Of a stretch of DNA of 64,000 bases, positions 50,092 through 53,432 are shown in pieces (the first letter of the stretch is position 1; each line of letters starts with the position of its first letter). Below the pieces are notes generated by a model, which had not been told where the DNA came from, made no database searches, and saw only the letters and a list, made by a program, of their open reading frames with translations. Source of the stretch: Bacteroidia bacterium. GTDB lineage: Bacteria; Bacteroidota; Bacteroidia; B-17B0; Aurantibacillaceae. The DNA is taken from assembly GCA_021740825.1 (NCBI GenBank), contig JAIOZA010000002.1, positions 1 through 64,000 of the forward strand. Reading direction: 5' to 3'. The translations under genes and the position numbers were made by a program.

Positions 50092-50136
50092 TAAAATTAC
50101 AACCTTAAAACAATTCGCCCTGTAACATTTGTCACA
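50092..50136 (-). promoter_or_regulatory. regulated promoter of DUF2892 gene: operator plus -7-like box
   Basis: Operator TGTAACATTTGTCACA (50121-50136) has one mismatch to perfect symmetry. On the minus strand TAATTTTA (50099-50092) is one base off TAnnTTTG. Operator centre to first -7 base is 29.5 bp, the same as at two other promoters of this block. The operator overlaps the last bases of the DUF6132 gene. Confidence 0.55.
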
Positions 50137-50353
50137 TATTAGGATTTTCTTTCTGACTAATGTCAGTTGGTTTAATCAAATTAACAATTAAACCACCCAA
50201 AGCAGCAAAATATAACGTACTATTTACAGGACTAGAGGTAATACCACAAGTTCCACTAGCACATCCTACAAAATAATAATATAGATAACCTCCTATCGCT
50301 CCAAAAATTACGCCTATTACCGTCAATTTATTATTTAGCAACCACTTCTTCAT
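50132..50353 (-). CDS. DUF6132 family small membrane protein
   Basis: 73 residues from ATG 50353 (MKKWLLNNKLTVIGVIFGAIGGYLYYYFVGC). Two transmembrane helices flank a loop with a Cys pair (GCASGTCGIT) that matches DUF6132 as seen beside rhodanese and TauE genes in Bacteroidota. The two cysteines could carry or sense sulfane sulfur; that is inference. The start lies within the preceding gene (overlap of about 23 bases), so it is translated from the rhodanese transcript. Confidence 0.78.
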   Translation of the reverse strand: MKKWLLNNKLTVIGVIFGAIGGYLYYYFVGCASGTCGITSSPVNSTLYFAALGGLIVNLIKPTDISQKENPNM

Positions 50354-50573
50354 ATTCAACATCTGTTATTTGTTTGGTAGAATCATCCTTCATGTAATTT
50401 GTTTCGCAGCCATTAGAACCACAGCAATCAACATTAAAAAATGCCATGCCACCTATTACTAATCCTAATATTCCTAAAACAATATCCAAGGTTATTATTG
50501 CTTGAACTAAAGAAAATGCCCCGAAAACAAATCGAAGCACTCGCATAAAACCCCATGATTTTAATAAATTCAT
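50331..50573 (-). CDS. small Cys-containing membrane protein (DUF2892-like)
   Basis: 80 residues, two hydrophobic helices (about 11-30 and 33-46) then FFNVDCCGSNGCETN. The layout (helix hairpin, then a Cys motif) is that of short YgaP-type membrane proteins, but the CPLY signature is replaced by a CC-x4-C cluster. The start follows the rhodanese stop by one base; the end overlaps the DUF6132 gene. Probably works with the rhodanese at the membrane. Confidence 0.7.
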   Translation of the reverse strand: MNLLKSWGFMRVLRFVFGAFSLVQAIITLDIVLGILGLVIGGMAFFNVDCCGSNGCETNYMKDDSTKQITDVEYEEVVAK

Positions 50574-50574
50574 G

Positions 50575-50946
50575 TTATTTAGTTTTACATGTTACATTTT
50601 GCCAAGGTCCTAAGTTTTCAATTTCCTTAGTATAACCTGCACTTTGTAATTGCCCTTTAGCAATACCCGCTCTGTTTCCACTGCGGCATACTAAAATTAC
50701 TTTATCATACTTTTTTAATTCTTCTATTTTACTAGCAAATTGATCTAATGGGTAATTTACAGAGCAGTCAGCATGACCGTCTTCATTCCATTCTTCTATT
50801 GATCTTACATCTACAATTATTTCTTTTGTATTTGTTTTTGTTGCGACATTTGTTTCCATAGTTGTTGTTGTTTTAGTTTGAGAATTACATTGTGTTAATG
50901 AAAACACTAACGTCATTAATGCAATAATTGATTTAATTTTTATCAT
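50575..50946 (-). CDS. rhodanese-domain lipoprotein
   Basis: 123 residues. The signal peptide ends in a likely lipobox (LVFSLTQC, Cys19), so it should be anchored in the periplasm. A single rhodanese domain follows (EIIVDVRSIEEWNEDGHADCSVNYPLDQF) with active-site loop VCRSGNRAG. It transfers sulfane sulfur between thiols. It is the first gene of a tight run with the two small Cys-bearing membrane proteins. A hairpin separates it from the fusion enzyme upstream. Confidence 0.88.
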   Translation of the reverse strand: MIKIKSIIALMTLVFSLTQCNSQTKTTTTMETNVATKTNTKEIIVDVRSIEEWNEDGHADCSVNYPLDQFASKIEELKKYDKVILVCRSGNRAGIAKGQLQSAGYTKEIENLGPWQNVTCKTK

Positions 50947-50962
50947 ATTTTTATTTTTAATA

Positions 50963-50997
50963 AACTGCCACAGTCAGTTTCACCAACTATGGCAGTT
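50963..50997 (-). terminator. hairpin between fusion enzyme and rhodanese genes
   Basis: AACTGCCA (50963-50970) pairs with TGGCAGTT (50990-50997) over a 19-base loop. On the minus strand a T-rich stretch follows, so it may terminate or attenuate the transcript from the fusion enzyme. No separate promoter for the rhodanese gene was recognised, so partial read-through is likely. Confidence 0.6.
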
Positions 50998-51004
50998 AAT
51001 TTAA

Positions 51005-52420
51005 TTACGTTTTTTGTAATTTGCTTTGGCAAACAAAATCTGTTTTTGCTACGCCAGCTTCTGCAATTGCTTTAAATCCACCTTCAATTTCTTTAAAGTT
51101 ATGCACTCCACGAGATTTTAAAATACTAGCTGCAATCATACTTCTGTAACCACCAGCACAATGAAGGTAAAAAGGTTTTTGAGTATCCATTTCAGCAAAC
51201 CAACTGTTAATTTGATCTAAAGGTTTGTTGTAAGATTCTTCAACGTGCTCTGCTCTATATTCGCTTTCTCTTCTTGCATCAATCACAGTATCTGCTTTTA
51301 CATCAACTTCTTTAGCAAATTGTGCCGCAGTAATTCTATTTACTGTATCAATTTCTTTTTCAGCTTGTTTCCAACTAGCAAAACTTCCTTGCAAATGTCC
51401 AATCACATTATCAAATCCAACACGGCTTAAACGCGTAACAGTTTCTTCTTCCATTCCAAGTTCTGTCACTAACAGAATAGATTGCTTCACATCCTTAATC
51501 AAAGCACCAACCCAAGGCGCAAAATCTCCGTTGATACCAATGTTAATTGAACGAGGTATAAATCCTTTTGCAAATTCAGCCGCATCTCTTGTGTCAAGCA
51601 CAATGGCATCCGTTGTTTCTGCAGCTGCTTCAAAAGCTACTGGAGATAAAGTTCTCATTCCGTTATTTAAAACAGTTTCAAAACTCTCTATTCCTTTTTT
51701 ATTCATGGCAACGTTGCTACCAAAATAACCTGGAGGAGGTAATAATCCATCAGTAACCGCTTTTACAAACTCTTCTTTGTTTGGTTGATTTAAAGCATAA
51801 TTCATTTTCTTTTGATTACCTAAAGTATCAACCGTTTCTTTCATCATGTTTTTACCGCACGCTGAACCAGCGCCGTGAGCAGGATAAACAATAACATCAT
51901 CCGCTAAAGGCATAATCTTATTATTTAACGAATCATATAATAAACCCGCTAATTCATCTTGAGTCATAGATGCTGCTTTTTGCGCTAAATCTGGGCGACC
52001 AACATCACCTAAAAACAAGGTGTCTCCACTAAATAAAGCATGATCTTTACCATTTTCATCAATTAATAAAAAGCACGTACTCTCCATTGTATGACCTGGT
52101 GTATGTAATACTTTAATTTTAACCTTTCCAACTGTAAATACCTCTCCATCATTAGCAGAGATAAATTCAAATTCTGGTTTTGCACTTGGGCCATAAACAA
52201 TTGGCGCTCCTGTTTTTTTGCATAAGTCCAAATGTCCTGAAACGAAATCAGCATGGAAATGTGTTTCAAAAATGTATTTTAATTTCACACCATCCTTTTG
52301 AAGTCTCTCCATATAAGGTTGTGTTTCGCGAAGCGGATCAATAATTGCAGCTTCTCCGTTAGAAGTAATATAATAAGCTCCTTGAGCTAAACATCCTGTA
52401 TAAATTTGTTCTATTTTCAT
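51005..52420 (-). CDS. persulfide dioxygenase-like MBL / double rhodanese fusion (CstB-like)
   Basis: 471 residues. An N-terminal metallo-beta-lactamase domain (1-240) has the ETHFHADFVSGH metal motif, HTPGHTMES and SGDTLFLGDVGRPDL, as in ETHE1/CstB persulfide dioxygenases. The first rhodanese domain (about 265-355) lacks the active Cys (ILLVTELGMEEE), a pseudo-domain. The second (about 365-465) has LHCAGGYRS with the active Cys. This order is that of S. aureus CstB, which oxidises persulfide to thiosulfate. Its promoter carries two operator palindromes (52498-52513, 52537-52552) and a -7 TACCTTTG. Confidence 0.92.
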   Translation of the reverse strand: MKIEQIYTGCLAQGAYYITSNGEAAIIDPLRETQPYMERLQKDGVKLKYIFETHFHADFVSGHLDLCKKTGAPIVYGPSAKPEFEFISANDGEVFTVGKVKIKVLHTPGHTMESTCFLLIDENGKDHALFSGDTLFLGDVGRPDLAQKAASMTQDELAGLLYDSLNNKIMPLADDVIVYPAHGAGSACGKNMMKETVDTLGNQKKMNYALNQPNKEEFVKAVTDGLLPPPGYFGSNVAMNKKGIESFETVLNNGMRTLSPVAFEAAAETTDAIVLDTRDAAEFAKGFIPRSINIGINGDFAPWVGALIKDVKQSILLVTELGMEEETVTRLSRVGFDNVIGHLQGSFASWKQAEKEIDTVNRITAAQFAKEVDVKADTVIDARRESEYRAEHVEESYNKPLDQINSWFAEMDTQKPFYLHCAGGYRSMIAASILKSRGVHNFKEIEGGFKAIAEAGVAKTDFVCQSKLQKT

Positions 52421-52468
52421 TTGATTGATTTTTTATAATTATTTTATGATTTGTTTATTTTTATGAGT

Positions 52469-52513
52469 CAAAGGTACTGTGGTTTTATTTTTTTTATTGT
52501 AACATTTATTACA
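52469..52513 (-). promoter_or_regulatory. regulated promoter of the fusion enzyme: operator plus -7 box
   Basis: Operator TGTAACATTTATTACA (52498-52513) and minus-strand -7 element TACCTTTG (52476-52469). Operator centre lies 29.5 bp from the first -7 base, so near -41.5 from the predicted start site, a class II activator position. Confidence 0.62.
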
Positions 52514-52536
52514 CTCAACTACTTGATTTTACTATG

Positions 52537-52552
52537 TGTAACAATGGTTACT
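52537..52552. promoter_or_regulatory. second upstream operator copy
   Basis: TGTAACAATGGTTACT is symmetric except at the outermost base. Its centre is 39 bp from that of the first operator. It lies 3 bases beyond the tauE stop, so it acts, if at all, on the fusion-enzyme promoter. Confidence 0.5.
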
Positions 52553-52554
52553 TA

Positions 52555-53352
52555 CTATTTTAAAAGGGTTTCTTTAATGATTATATACACTCCCATGATT
52601 AAAACGAACCAACCAAAAATTGGTTTTAATTTTGCGCCATCTATTTTTTTAGACAGATAAATTCCTATAAAAATACCAACTGTTGCAAAAGCCGCTACGG
52701 AGGTTAATAGTGTCCAATCAATAACAGTTTCTCCACCCTCTCCAAAAAATCCGATTAATGATTTAGCAGCAATAATTACTAACGATGTTCCTACAGCTTC
52801 TTTCATAGGTAGTTTAGATAAAAGAACTAAGGCAGGTATAATTAAAAAACCTCCGCCTGCTCCAACTAAACCAGTTACAACACCAACTACTGCACCTTCT
52901 AATAAAATAACAGGATAATTAAATTTTTGCGGTCCTAAATCTTCTTCTTTTTTCTTCTTATCTTTCTTAATCATACTAAATGATGCCACAACCATTAAAA
53001 TGGCAAATAGCAACATCATTAAAATACTTTTAGTAACCATAAAATCCCCCACAGAAAACACTTCTTTGGGAATGGCTGGTACTATATAAGCTCTCGTTAA
53101 AAAAACTGCAACGATGGATGGTGCACCAAAAACCAAAGCGGTTTTGATATTTACTAATCCTTTTTTGAAATAACCTACCGAGCCAATAGCTGCAGTAAAT
53201 CCAACAATAAACAAGGAATATGCCGTGGCTGCAACAGCATCAACTGAGAATAAATATACCAATACTGGCACTGTTAAAATACTCCCGCCACTTCCAATAA
53301 GACCTAAAGAGATTCCAATTAAAATTGATGAAATGTATCCGATTACTTCCAT
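52555..53352 (-). CDS. TauE/SafE family sulfite/sulfur anion exporter
   Basis: 265 residues with about eight hydrophobic helices. Family motifs: IGISLGLIGSGGSILTVPVLVYL near the start and GVVTGLVGAGGGFLIIPALVLLS in the second half, the duplicated GxxxGxxGxGGG pattern. A polar loop KKDKKKKEEDLGPQ lies in the middle. TauE proteins sit in cst-type sulfide-detoxification operons and are thought to export sulfite or related anions. The gene lies just upstream of the fusion enzyme and has its own operator-bearing promoter. Confidence 0.9.
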   Translation of the reverse strand: MEVIGYISSILIGISLGLIGSGGSILTVPVLVYLFSVDAVAATAYSLFIVGFTAAIGSVGYFKKGLVNIKTALVFGAPSIVAVFLTRAYIVPAIPKEVFSVGDFMVTKSILMMLLFAILMVVASFSMIKKDKKKKEEDLGPQKFNYPVILLEGAVVGVVTGLVGAGGGFLIIPALVLLSKLPMKEAVGTSLVIIAAKSLIGFFGEGGETVIDWTLLTSVAAFATVGIFIGIYLSKKIDGAKLKPIFGWFVLIMGVYIIIKETLLK

Positions 53353-53387
53353 AATATTGCGGTTTAAATAAATTTACAATTATGGTA

Positions 53388-53432
53388 CAAAGATAATATG
53401 ACAATAATCATTTGACGGTTACATTTGTTACA
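53388..53432 (-). promoter_or_regulatory. regulated promoter of the TauE gene: operator plus -7 box
   Basis: Operator GGTTACATTTGTTACA (53417-53432; inner GTTACATTTGTTAC-like core) and minus-strand -7 TATCTTTG (53395-53388). Operator centre to first -7 base is 29.5 bp, identical to the fusion-enzyme promoter. Confidence 0.62.

Follow-up and report, generated by a model that had tools for sequence, protein, structure and literature searches.

We examined a 64,000-nucleotide stretch of DNA from a Bacteroidia bacterium of the Aurantibacillaceae (GenBank assembly GCA_021740825.1, contig JAIOZA010000002.1, positions 1 to 64,000; hereafter the window), which carries a sulfur-handling gene block with palindromic operators at its promoters. 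It was found that these operators stand at one fixed distance from the -7 box, that the same arrangement recurs in relatives, and that one gene run beginning with it ends in a Crp/Fnr-type regulator gene whose product is the probable activator of the set. The operators, their -7 boxes and the genes behind them are listed here, with mismatches counted against TGTAAC-N4-GTTACA.

53417 to 53432, minus strand: operator of the TauE promoter, TGTAACAAATGTAACC on the minus strand; 2 mismatches, centre 29.5 bp from the -7 box
53388 to 53395, minus strand: -7 box of the TauE promoter, TATCTTTG; fits TAnnTTTG
52555 to 53352, minus strand: TauE/SafE-type sulfite exporter gene, 265 amino acids (PF01925, E 1.3e-45)
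52537 to 52552, minus strand: second upstream operator of the fusion gene, TGTAACAATGGTTACT; 1 mismatch, at about -80.5
52498 to 52513, minus strand: main operator of the metallo-beta-lactamase/rhodanese fusion gene, TGTAATAAATGTTACA on the minus strand; 1 mismatch
52469 to 52476, minus strand: -7 box of the fusion gene, TACCTTTG, from reading the sequence
51005 to 52420, minus strand: metallo-beta-lactamase/rhodanese fusion gene, 471 amino acids (Pfam Lactamase_B and two Rhodanese stretches)
50121 to 50136, minus strand: operator of the YgaP-like/DUF2892 promoter, TGTGACAAATGTTACA on the minus strand; 1 mismatch
50092 to 50099, minus strand: non-consensus -7 box of the YgaP-like/DUF2892 promoter, TAATTTTA; kept in locus L047
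49860 to 50066, minus strand: gene for a YgaP-like transmembrane protein (earlier named DUF2892), 68 amino acids (PF11127)

The preliminary description of this DNA had reported three palindromes with minus-strand -7 boxes, and their sequences and coordinates were correct on re-reading. The distance from operator centre to first -7 base was likewise 29.5 bp at all three promoters (50128.5 to 50099, 52505.5 to 52476 and 53424.5 to 53395). The palindromes had been called near-identical; as a correction, the TauE site has two mismatches and the fusion-gene and DUF2892 sites have one each. As to the -7 elements, the TauE box fits TAnnTTTG, while the YgaP-like/DUF2892 box deviates at its final base; this deviating box is retained at identical spacing in the sister genome (L047). 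A scan of the window also recovered a fourth, overlooked operator, the second one of the fusion gene, whose centre lies 39 bp upstream of the centre of the main site, and L047 and L050 have a second site at equal distance. A second operator as a general feature was considered and rejected, since of the 51 loci with a site of at least 16/17 only 6 had another one 27-29 or 39 bp upstream. The operator centre would fall at -41.5 because the first T of the -7 box is placed at -12, a numbering that is a convention. A sigma-70 scan found promoter-like sites without excess (21 vs 19.2 in shuffles). The fusion gene is putatively of the persulfide-dioxygenase type, and we treat its activity as predicted because the NCBIfam Blh match (59.9 bits) lies far under the cut-off of 625.

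We then compared the palindrome alone with the palindrome plus its spacing across the genome. With up to two mismatches the palindrome alone occurred at 271 places, compared with 201 for the reversed pattern, and it was rejected as a genome-wide marker because its matches are too many. Outside the window, 22 palindromes with at most one mismatch were read, and 19 lay in open reading frames; the rest were C20:6360 (a promoter site), C32:38976 and C20:4513, the last being intergenic with a plus-strand -7 box, TACCTTTA, at a gap of 22. Two candidates were set aside: C17:30015, near-identical to the 50121 site, is within a gene and lacks a -7 box at the spacing, and the perfect palindrome at C24:60753 is within a gene as well. 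The composite of operator, 21 free bases (gap 21) and TAnnTTTG, with up to three mismatches, gave 17 places vs 10 for the reversed control, of which the total alone is given; six places had at most two mismatches, namely the three window sites and three elsewhere. With the gap left free from 7 to 37, seven places were found, five of them at gap 21, vs one in the reversed control, although this pattern was composed after the fixed-gap result was known and is not independent of it. The preliminary description had held that many genome-wide matches at random positions would speak against a shared operator; such matches are a property of the palindrome alone, and not of the palindrome with its spacing.

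Three sets of genes outside the window have the operator at the same spacing: an MFS gene (C20), a DUF983-thioredoxin-OsmC run (C42) and a run leading from a rhodanese gene to a crp-type gene. The operator-preceded rhodanese gene runs off the start of contig C20, and the last 139 bases of C46, the contig of the window, are identical to the C20 start, which indicates that the gene continues from C20 into C46. There it is followed by genes for a universal-stress protein, two YeeE/YedE halves (Sulf_transp), a cytochrome with a SoxA/TsdA domain, DsrE, an OprD porin, a SoxB-like protein (NCBIfam SoxB match 259 bits, cut-off 550; SoxA match in the run 53 bits, cut-off 110) and, last, a 210-amino-acid Crp/Fnr protein. 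It was noted that the window cluster and the YeeE/cytochrome cluster share one 20-kb locus in the sister L047 and are far apart on C46 here.

The preliminary description had proposed a Crp/Fnr-family regulator and had seen none in the window. Two genes with HTH_Crp_2 (PF13545) were found in the genome, neither inside the window, and the 210-amino-acid gene (C46:159932-160564), about 96 kb past the window end on the same contig, is the candidate. It closes a run that opens with a gene under the operator at the same spacing, which makes an autoregulatory loop probable. The protein matches PF00027 (cyclic nucleoside monophosphate, cNMP, binding fold) and PF13545 (Crp-type helix-turn-helix, HTH) above cut-off, and falls below the cut-offs of the CRP equivalog NF008732 (54.9 bits, cut-off 266) and the NtcA equivalog TIGR03697 (44.4 bits, cut-off 244.95). 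Its recognition helix, SRVVISRLL, aligns with the TRVTVTRLL of NtcA. The second Crp/Fnr gene (C42) encodes a response regulator-cNMP-HTH fusion with the helix TESLIRTL. Relatives of the 210-amino-acid protein were grouped by motif into classes A, B and C. Cys76 is invariant in all 30 proteins aligned from these classes, and of the 14 class B proteins listed, 13 have no other cysteine. Both helix arginines are also invariant, at the positions of CRP Arg180 and Arg185, which the accessible text of PMC12531629 names as base-contacting. In classes A and B, Val mostly stands in the place of CRP Glu181, and Glu at CRP position 181 is also seen together with Cys motifs like those of class A and class B (G190, G162, G273, G214).

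To characterize the spacing among relatives, 80 loci were gathered through the fusion protein, and palindromic 16-mers upstream of TAnnTTTG were scored in a motif-blind manner. Mean palindromicity peaked at a gap of exactly 21 (z 5.8 vs other gaps; duplicates removed), and many of the best pairs were TGTAAC-type palindromes ahead of the fusion gene. A relaxed composite of at least 15/17 was found at gap 21 in 60 of the 80 loci, and at every other gap from 10 to 35 in 0 to 7; full 17/17 matches occurred in 31 loci at gap 21 and in none at other gaps. In a free-gap scan of other genomes, gap 21 accounted for 61 and gap 22 for 20 among the 143 matches listed, the rest averaging 2.1 per gap (maximum 10). 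The strict gap-21 pattern gave 79 sites in 43 of 296 Bacteroidota genomes, compared with 4 in the reversed control, and the genomes with a strict site were 40 of 73 in the same class vs 3 of 223 others. Only 5 of the 79 gap-21 sites lay within long open frames, vs 16 of 28 other-gap control sites; of eight sites with a gap of 20 or 22, treated separately, four were in long open frames and four preceded TauE or cytochrome bd-like genes. Chance offers another account, in which AT-rich DNA often contains palindromes and -7-like boxes and the equal spacing is luck, and the weak over-representation of the palindrome alone (271 vs 201) is in keeping with it; the 79 vs 4 sites at fixed spacing, the gap sweep and the downstream gene content already contradict it, and we regard it as extremely improbable. 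The earlier view that the equal spacing exceeds chance is upheld: operator plus spacing goes far beyond chance in the own genome, and the results from the relatives agree.

Three further observations were made on these loci. Palindromicity upstream of the -7 box is also raised at gaps 45-47 in class C loci (L073-L125). In some class B loci (e.g. L085, L101 and L104) TauE is preceded by TGTAACAAAAGTAGCT, whose proximal half has decayed, and by a CAnnTTTG box, and we read TGTAACAAAAGTAGCT as an operator variant that accompanies ESCIMSFLGG regulators. Loci L054, L088 and L117 are labelled Bifidobacterium breve, Rhizobium and Sphingomonadales, yet have a Bacteroidota-type locus, and these metagenome-assembled genomes look mislabelled.

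A -33 TTTG was not enriched at the 79 sites, being found 17-20 bp upstream of the -7 box in four cases (one per position; about 0.45 expected), and the -7 box itself is degenerate (CAnnTTTG or GAnnTTTG) in several loci. These features bear on the direction of control. The same Crp/Fnr protein could instead repress at the -33 region and be released by sulfide or persulfide, as SqrR, BigR and CstR are. The operator indeed covers the place of a -33 element, and the accessible text of PMC9774590 describes CstR, SqrR and BigR, all of them regulators that respond to persulfide, as repressors. Repression would not call for a single exact spacing, whereas gap 21 is the predominant one throughout the class, and -7 boxes that lack a -33 TTTG partner and are in part degenerate are as expected for activator-dependent promoters. 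Repression thus appears unlikely to us, and activation is favoured because the exact spacing predominates, the -33 TTTG is missing and some -7 boxes are degenerate.

We next assessed the genes behind the sites. A first open reading frame was obtained for 78 of the 79 strict sites, and its Pfam families were led by rhodanese (34), metallo-beta-lactamase (27), TauE (5) and outer-membrane efflux (4; OEP genes directly after the operator in L157, L166, L193 and L204). Rarer families included sulfate permease (3), DUF6132 (3; L170, L197 and L198), thioredoxin-like, SoxA/TsdA and DUF983, with single cases such as cytochrome bd. By BLAST against 16 proteins of the window organism, 50 of the 78 matched (its own five sites included): fusion protein 28, rhodanese 6, TauE 4, DUF983 4, thioredoxin 3, MFS 2, cytochrome 2 and YeeE 1. 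With the fifth TauE (L137), half of the 78 downstream genes encode the fusion protein, a rhodanese or TauE. Rhodanese, metallo-beta-lactamase and TauE were found in none of the 18 open reading frames behind other-gap sites, a control that started from 28 sites in the fetched stretches, 8 of them without an open reading frame and 2 dropped for sharing one with a gap-21 site. The flavoprotein at L163, for which Pfam gives Pyr_redox_2, is presumably a sulfide:quinone oxidoreductase (SQR). A persulfide dioxygenase, SQR, TauE and cytochrome bd are reported as induced by sulfide in Acinetobacter baumannii (accessible text of PMC8148161), and because that set resembles the one found here, a sulfide-derived signal is proposed.

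The linkage between regulator and site was examined with a family search built from a 30-member alignment (threshold 1e-20; weakest match about 1e-50). The regulator family was found in 61 of 72 same-class genomes; 37 had both family and strict site, 24 the family alone, 2 the site alone and 9 neither (Fisher exact test; p = 0.018). Among the sites, 24 of 71 lay within 10 kb of a family gene. Where no strict site was present, the fusion-gene start had a relaxed site upstream in 10 of 22 family-bearing genomes and in 0 of 5 that lack the family (27 of 35 genomes scored; of the others, 5 lacked a fetched locus and 3 a start that could be identified). The two site-only genomes (G230 and G238) have their sites before DUF2492 (L130) and Hcp/prismane (L178) genes, and no fusion-gene match at 1e-60 was found in either; another Crp/Fnr regulator with a similar site is probably at work there.

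Regulator residue and operator half-site were also found to covary. A proximal half of the GTCAC type was present in 20 of 23 sites whose regulator has Glu at CRP position 181 vs 7 of 43 with Val, and by genome in 15 of 16 vs 2 of 16. This count covers 66 of the 79 sites; it omits G202, which has both residues, five genomes in which the helix was not matched (G130, G007, G002, G158 and G095), the two that lack a family gene (G230 and G238) and three that lie outside the class. In classic E. coli genetics, Val in place of Glu181 in CRP shifts the preference at the corresponding base. The sites, their spacing, the gene content, the linkage, the co-occurrence and this covariation are all read directly from the sequences.

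The operators might be bound by a different regulator, either the response regulator-cNMP-HTH fusion on C42 or one missing from the assembly. PF13545 does find this second protein, the genome is 87.6% complete, so that another regulator could be absent from the assembly, and the sites in G230 and G238 suggest that other Crp/Fnr proteins can use similar sites. However, the C42 protein has a helix of another kind than SRVVISRLL, the type found to covary with the half-site, and the neighbour of its gene is kinase-like (2 kb read, at a contig end), whereas the 210-amino-acid family is linked to sulfur genes. We consider binding by another regulator quite unlikely.

We estimate at about 80% the probability that the 210-amino-acid Crp/Fnr protein is a class II activator, acting at about -41.5 through these palindromes, of a sulfide/persulfide regulon. 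The preliminary description had likewise suggested a class II Crp/Fnr activator near -41.5, and this suggestion gains support from the spacing, from the regulator gene within a target run and from the relatives. A dimer of the protein would bind the palindrome with its centre at about -41.5, replace the missing -33 element and recruit RNA polymerase to the TAnnTTTG promoter, as at class II CRP and NtcA sites. The regulon would dispose of sulfide, persulfide and sulfite and handle thiosulfate, with the fusion protein, rhodaneses, TauE, YeeE-type transporters, the SoxA/TsdA-like cytochrome, the SoxB-like protein, thioredoxin and OsmC as its predicted members. The signal may be sensed through the invariant Cys76, a bound heme, or both. 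What we infer for this system is that the protein binds, that it activates rather than represses, that the genes are co-transcribed and that the signal derives from sulfide or persulfide.

Several known systems resemble parts of this arrangement. NtcA has a GTAN8TAC site at about -41.5, one described site lying 22 nt from the -10 box (accessible text of PMC3898017); GTAN8TAC is the core of the palindromes, and 22 nt is the spacing found here when counted from TAC. NtcA differs in that it controls nitrogen through 2-oxoglutarate, and the 210-amino-acid protein falls far under its equivalog cut-off. E. coli CRP shares the fold family and the class II geometry; here the promoter is of the TAnnTTTG type, an invariant Cys stands in the pocket segment, and Glu181 is mostly Val in classes A and B. 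CstR, SqrR/BigR and FisR control comparable sets in other phyla (persulfide dioxygenase, SQR, sulfurtransferase), but belong to other protein families, FisR being an activator and CstR and SqrR/BigR repressors (PMC9774590, accessible text). Term searches within PMC9774590, PMC8148161 and one further paper returned no Crp/Fnr persulfide sensor and no "Bacteroid-". Within the accessible open-licence literature, including PMC10100741, PMC12937710 and PMC12423496, no Crp/Fnr protein tied to persulfide genes in Bacteroidota was encountered.

The closest known protein appears to be PgRsp of Porphyromonas gingivalis, a 207-amino-acid heme-binding Crp/Fnr protein of unassigned family that is reported to be autoregulated (PMC6955866, accessible text). 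Its likeness to the regulator family comes through L120 (Porphyromonas circumdentaria), a protein of 207 amino acids with Cys76, Met78 and His85, whose gene adjoins TauE and fusion genes; the TauE gene of this locus has TGTAACCAAAGTAACA 21 bases ahead of GACCTTTG (15/17). In addition, among solved structures 3DV8 is the best match to the family, and it is the template that PMC6955866 chose, as far as its accessible text goes. In the 210-amino-acid protein Cys76 and Met78 are retained, but position 85 is Glu. By these residue positions, through L120, we place PgRsp provisionally in the regulator family. The main text of PMC6955866 contains "sulf" once, in a detergent name, and "palindrom" and "consensus" not at all.

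PgRsp also suggests a different account, a regulon for heme, redox or oxidative stress whose induction takes the sulfur genes along. PgRsp binds heme and its mutant is oxidant-sensitive (PMC6955866, accessible text), and peroxiredoxin, MsrAB and thioredoxin genes stand behind some of the sites. On the other hand, the fusion, rhodanese and TauE genes are the commonest downstream genes, and catalase and superoxide dismutase were not among the matches listed (25 of 35 Pfam families). We find a heme or redox regulon doubtful. In PgRsp, heme was still bound after Cys76, Met78 or His85 had been exchanged singly; because Cys76 alone is dispensable for heme (PMC6955866, accessible text), its invariance asks for another role, and our preferred guess is the thiol sensing of persulfide.

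A number of observations count against a class II sulfide/persulfide activator, beginning with the incompleteness of the genome. PgRsp, the one relative found that has been studied, is tied by its authors to heme, oxidative stress and virulence-gene expression, and by gel shifts to the hmu and bcp promoters, rather than to sulfur (PMC6955866, accessible text). Genes without a clear sulfur role stand behind some sites (ruvB, L177; MsrAB, L202; Hcp, L178), and the SoxB-, SoxA-, TsuA- and Blh-type matches are all under their NCBIfam cut-offs. No strict site was found in 24 of the 61 family-positive genomes. The Glu/Val rule has exceptions (G162, G049 and G186), and 12 of the 16 Glu genomes belong to one genus. 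In class C loci the motif-blind score at gap 45 is slightly above that at gap 21 (3.05 vs 2.95), and 20 of the 80 loci fall below 15/17, including eight to which a class B regulator is linked (L056, L057, L083, L085, L101, L104, L108 and L118). The 80 loci are related, many being from Flavobacterium, and so are not 80 independent events. Three gap-22 sites precede TauE genes (L141-L143), so the spacing is not absolute.

The remaining genes of the window block lie between the fusion gene and the YgaP-like gene.

50575 to 50946, minus strand: small rhodanese gene, 123 amino acids, downstream of the fusion gene (PF00581)
50331 to 50573, minus strand: membrane-like open reading frame, 80 amino acids, no Pfam match
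50132 to 50362, minus strand: DUF6132 gene, 76 amino acids (PF19628); its 3' end overlaps the YgaP-like/DUF2892 operator

The small rhodanese gene is a neighbour of the fusion gene in relatives as well (e.g. L047-L050). The DUF6132 protein of the window has the motif GCASGTCGITS and, since genes of this family stand behind the operator in L170, L197 and L198, may be a sulfur-related membrane protein. An inverted repeat, AACTGCCA ... TGGCAGTT, at 50963-50997 between the fusion and small rhodanese genes is terminator-like by eye, and it was not among the hits of the scan that looked for sigma-70 sites. Given this repeat, the small rhodanese gene and those after it may rely on read-through.

The new elements here are the regulator, the gene run that holds it, a regulon spanning the class and the tie to PgRsp; the architecture and the fold are of a known kind. 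Bacteroidia are common in sulfide-rich guts, mouths and sediments. How they sense sulfide is not stated in the accessible text of the open-licence persulfide and Crp literature covered. Our wider proposal is a dedicated Crp/Fnr family of sulfide/persulfide sensors in Bacteroidia, acting directly through the pocket Cys with or without heme, with a Glu/Val-181 switch that retunes the GTGAC/GTAAC half and with PgRsp as a sulfur regulator; we hold it tentatively, at somewhat less than an even chance. The conserved spacing would provide a class II ruler for the TAnnTTTG promoter, and PgRsp may acquire a possible new function. These results offer a candidate regulator family with an operator defined to the base, a promoter geometry and a regulon, all of which could be tested in a tractable laboratory strain.

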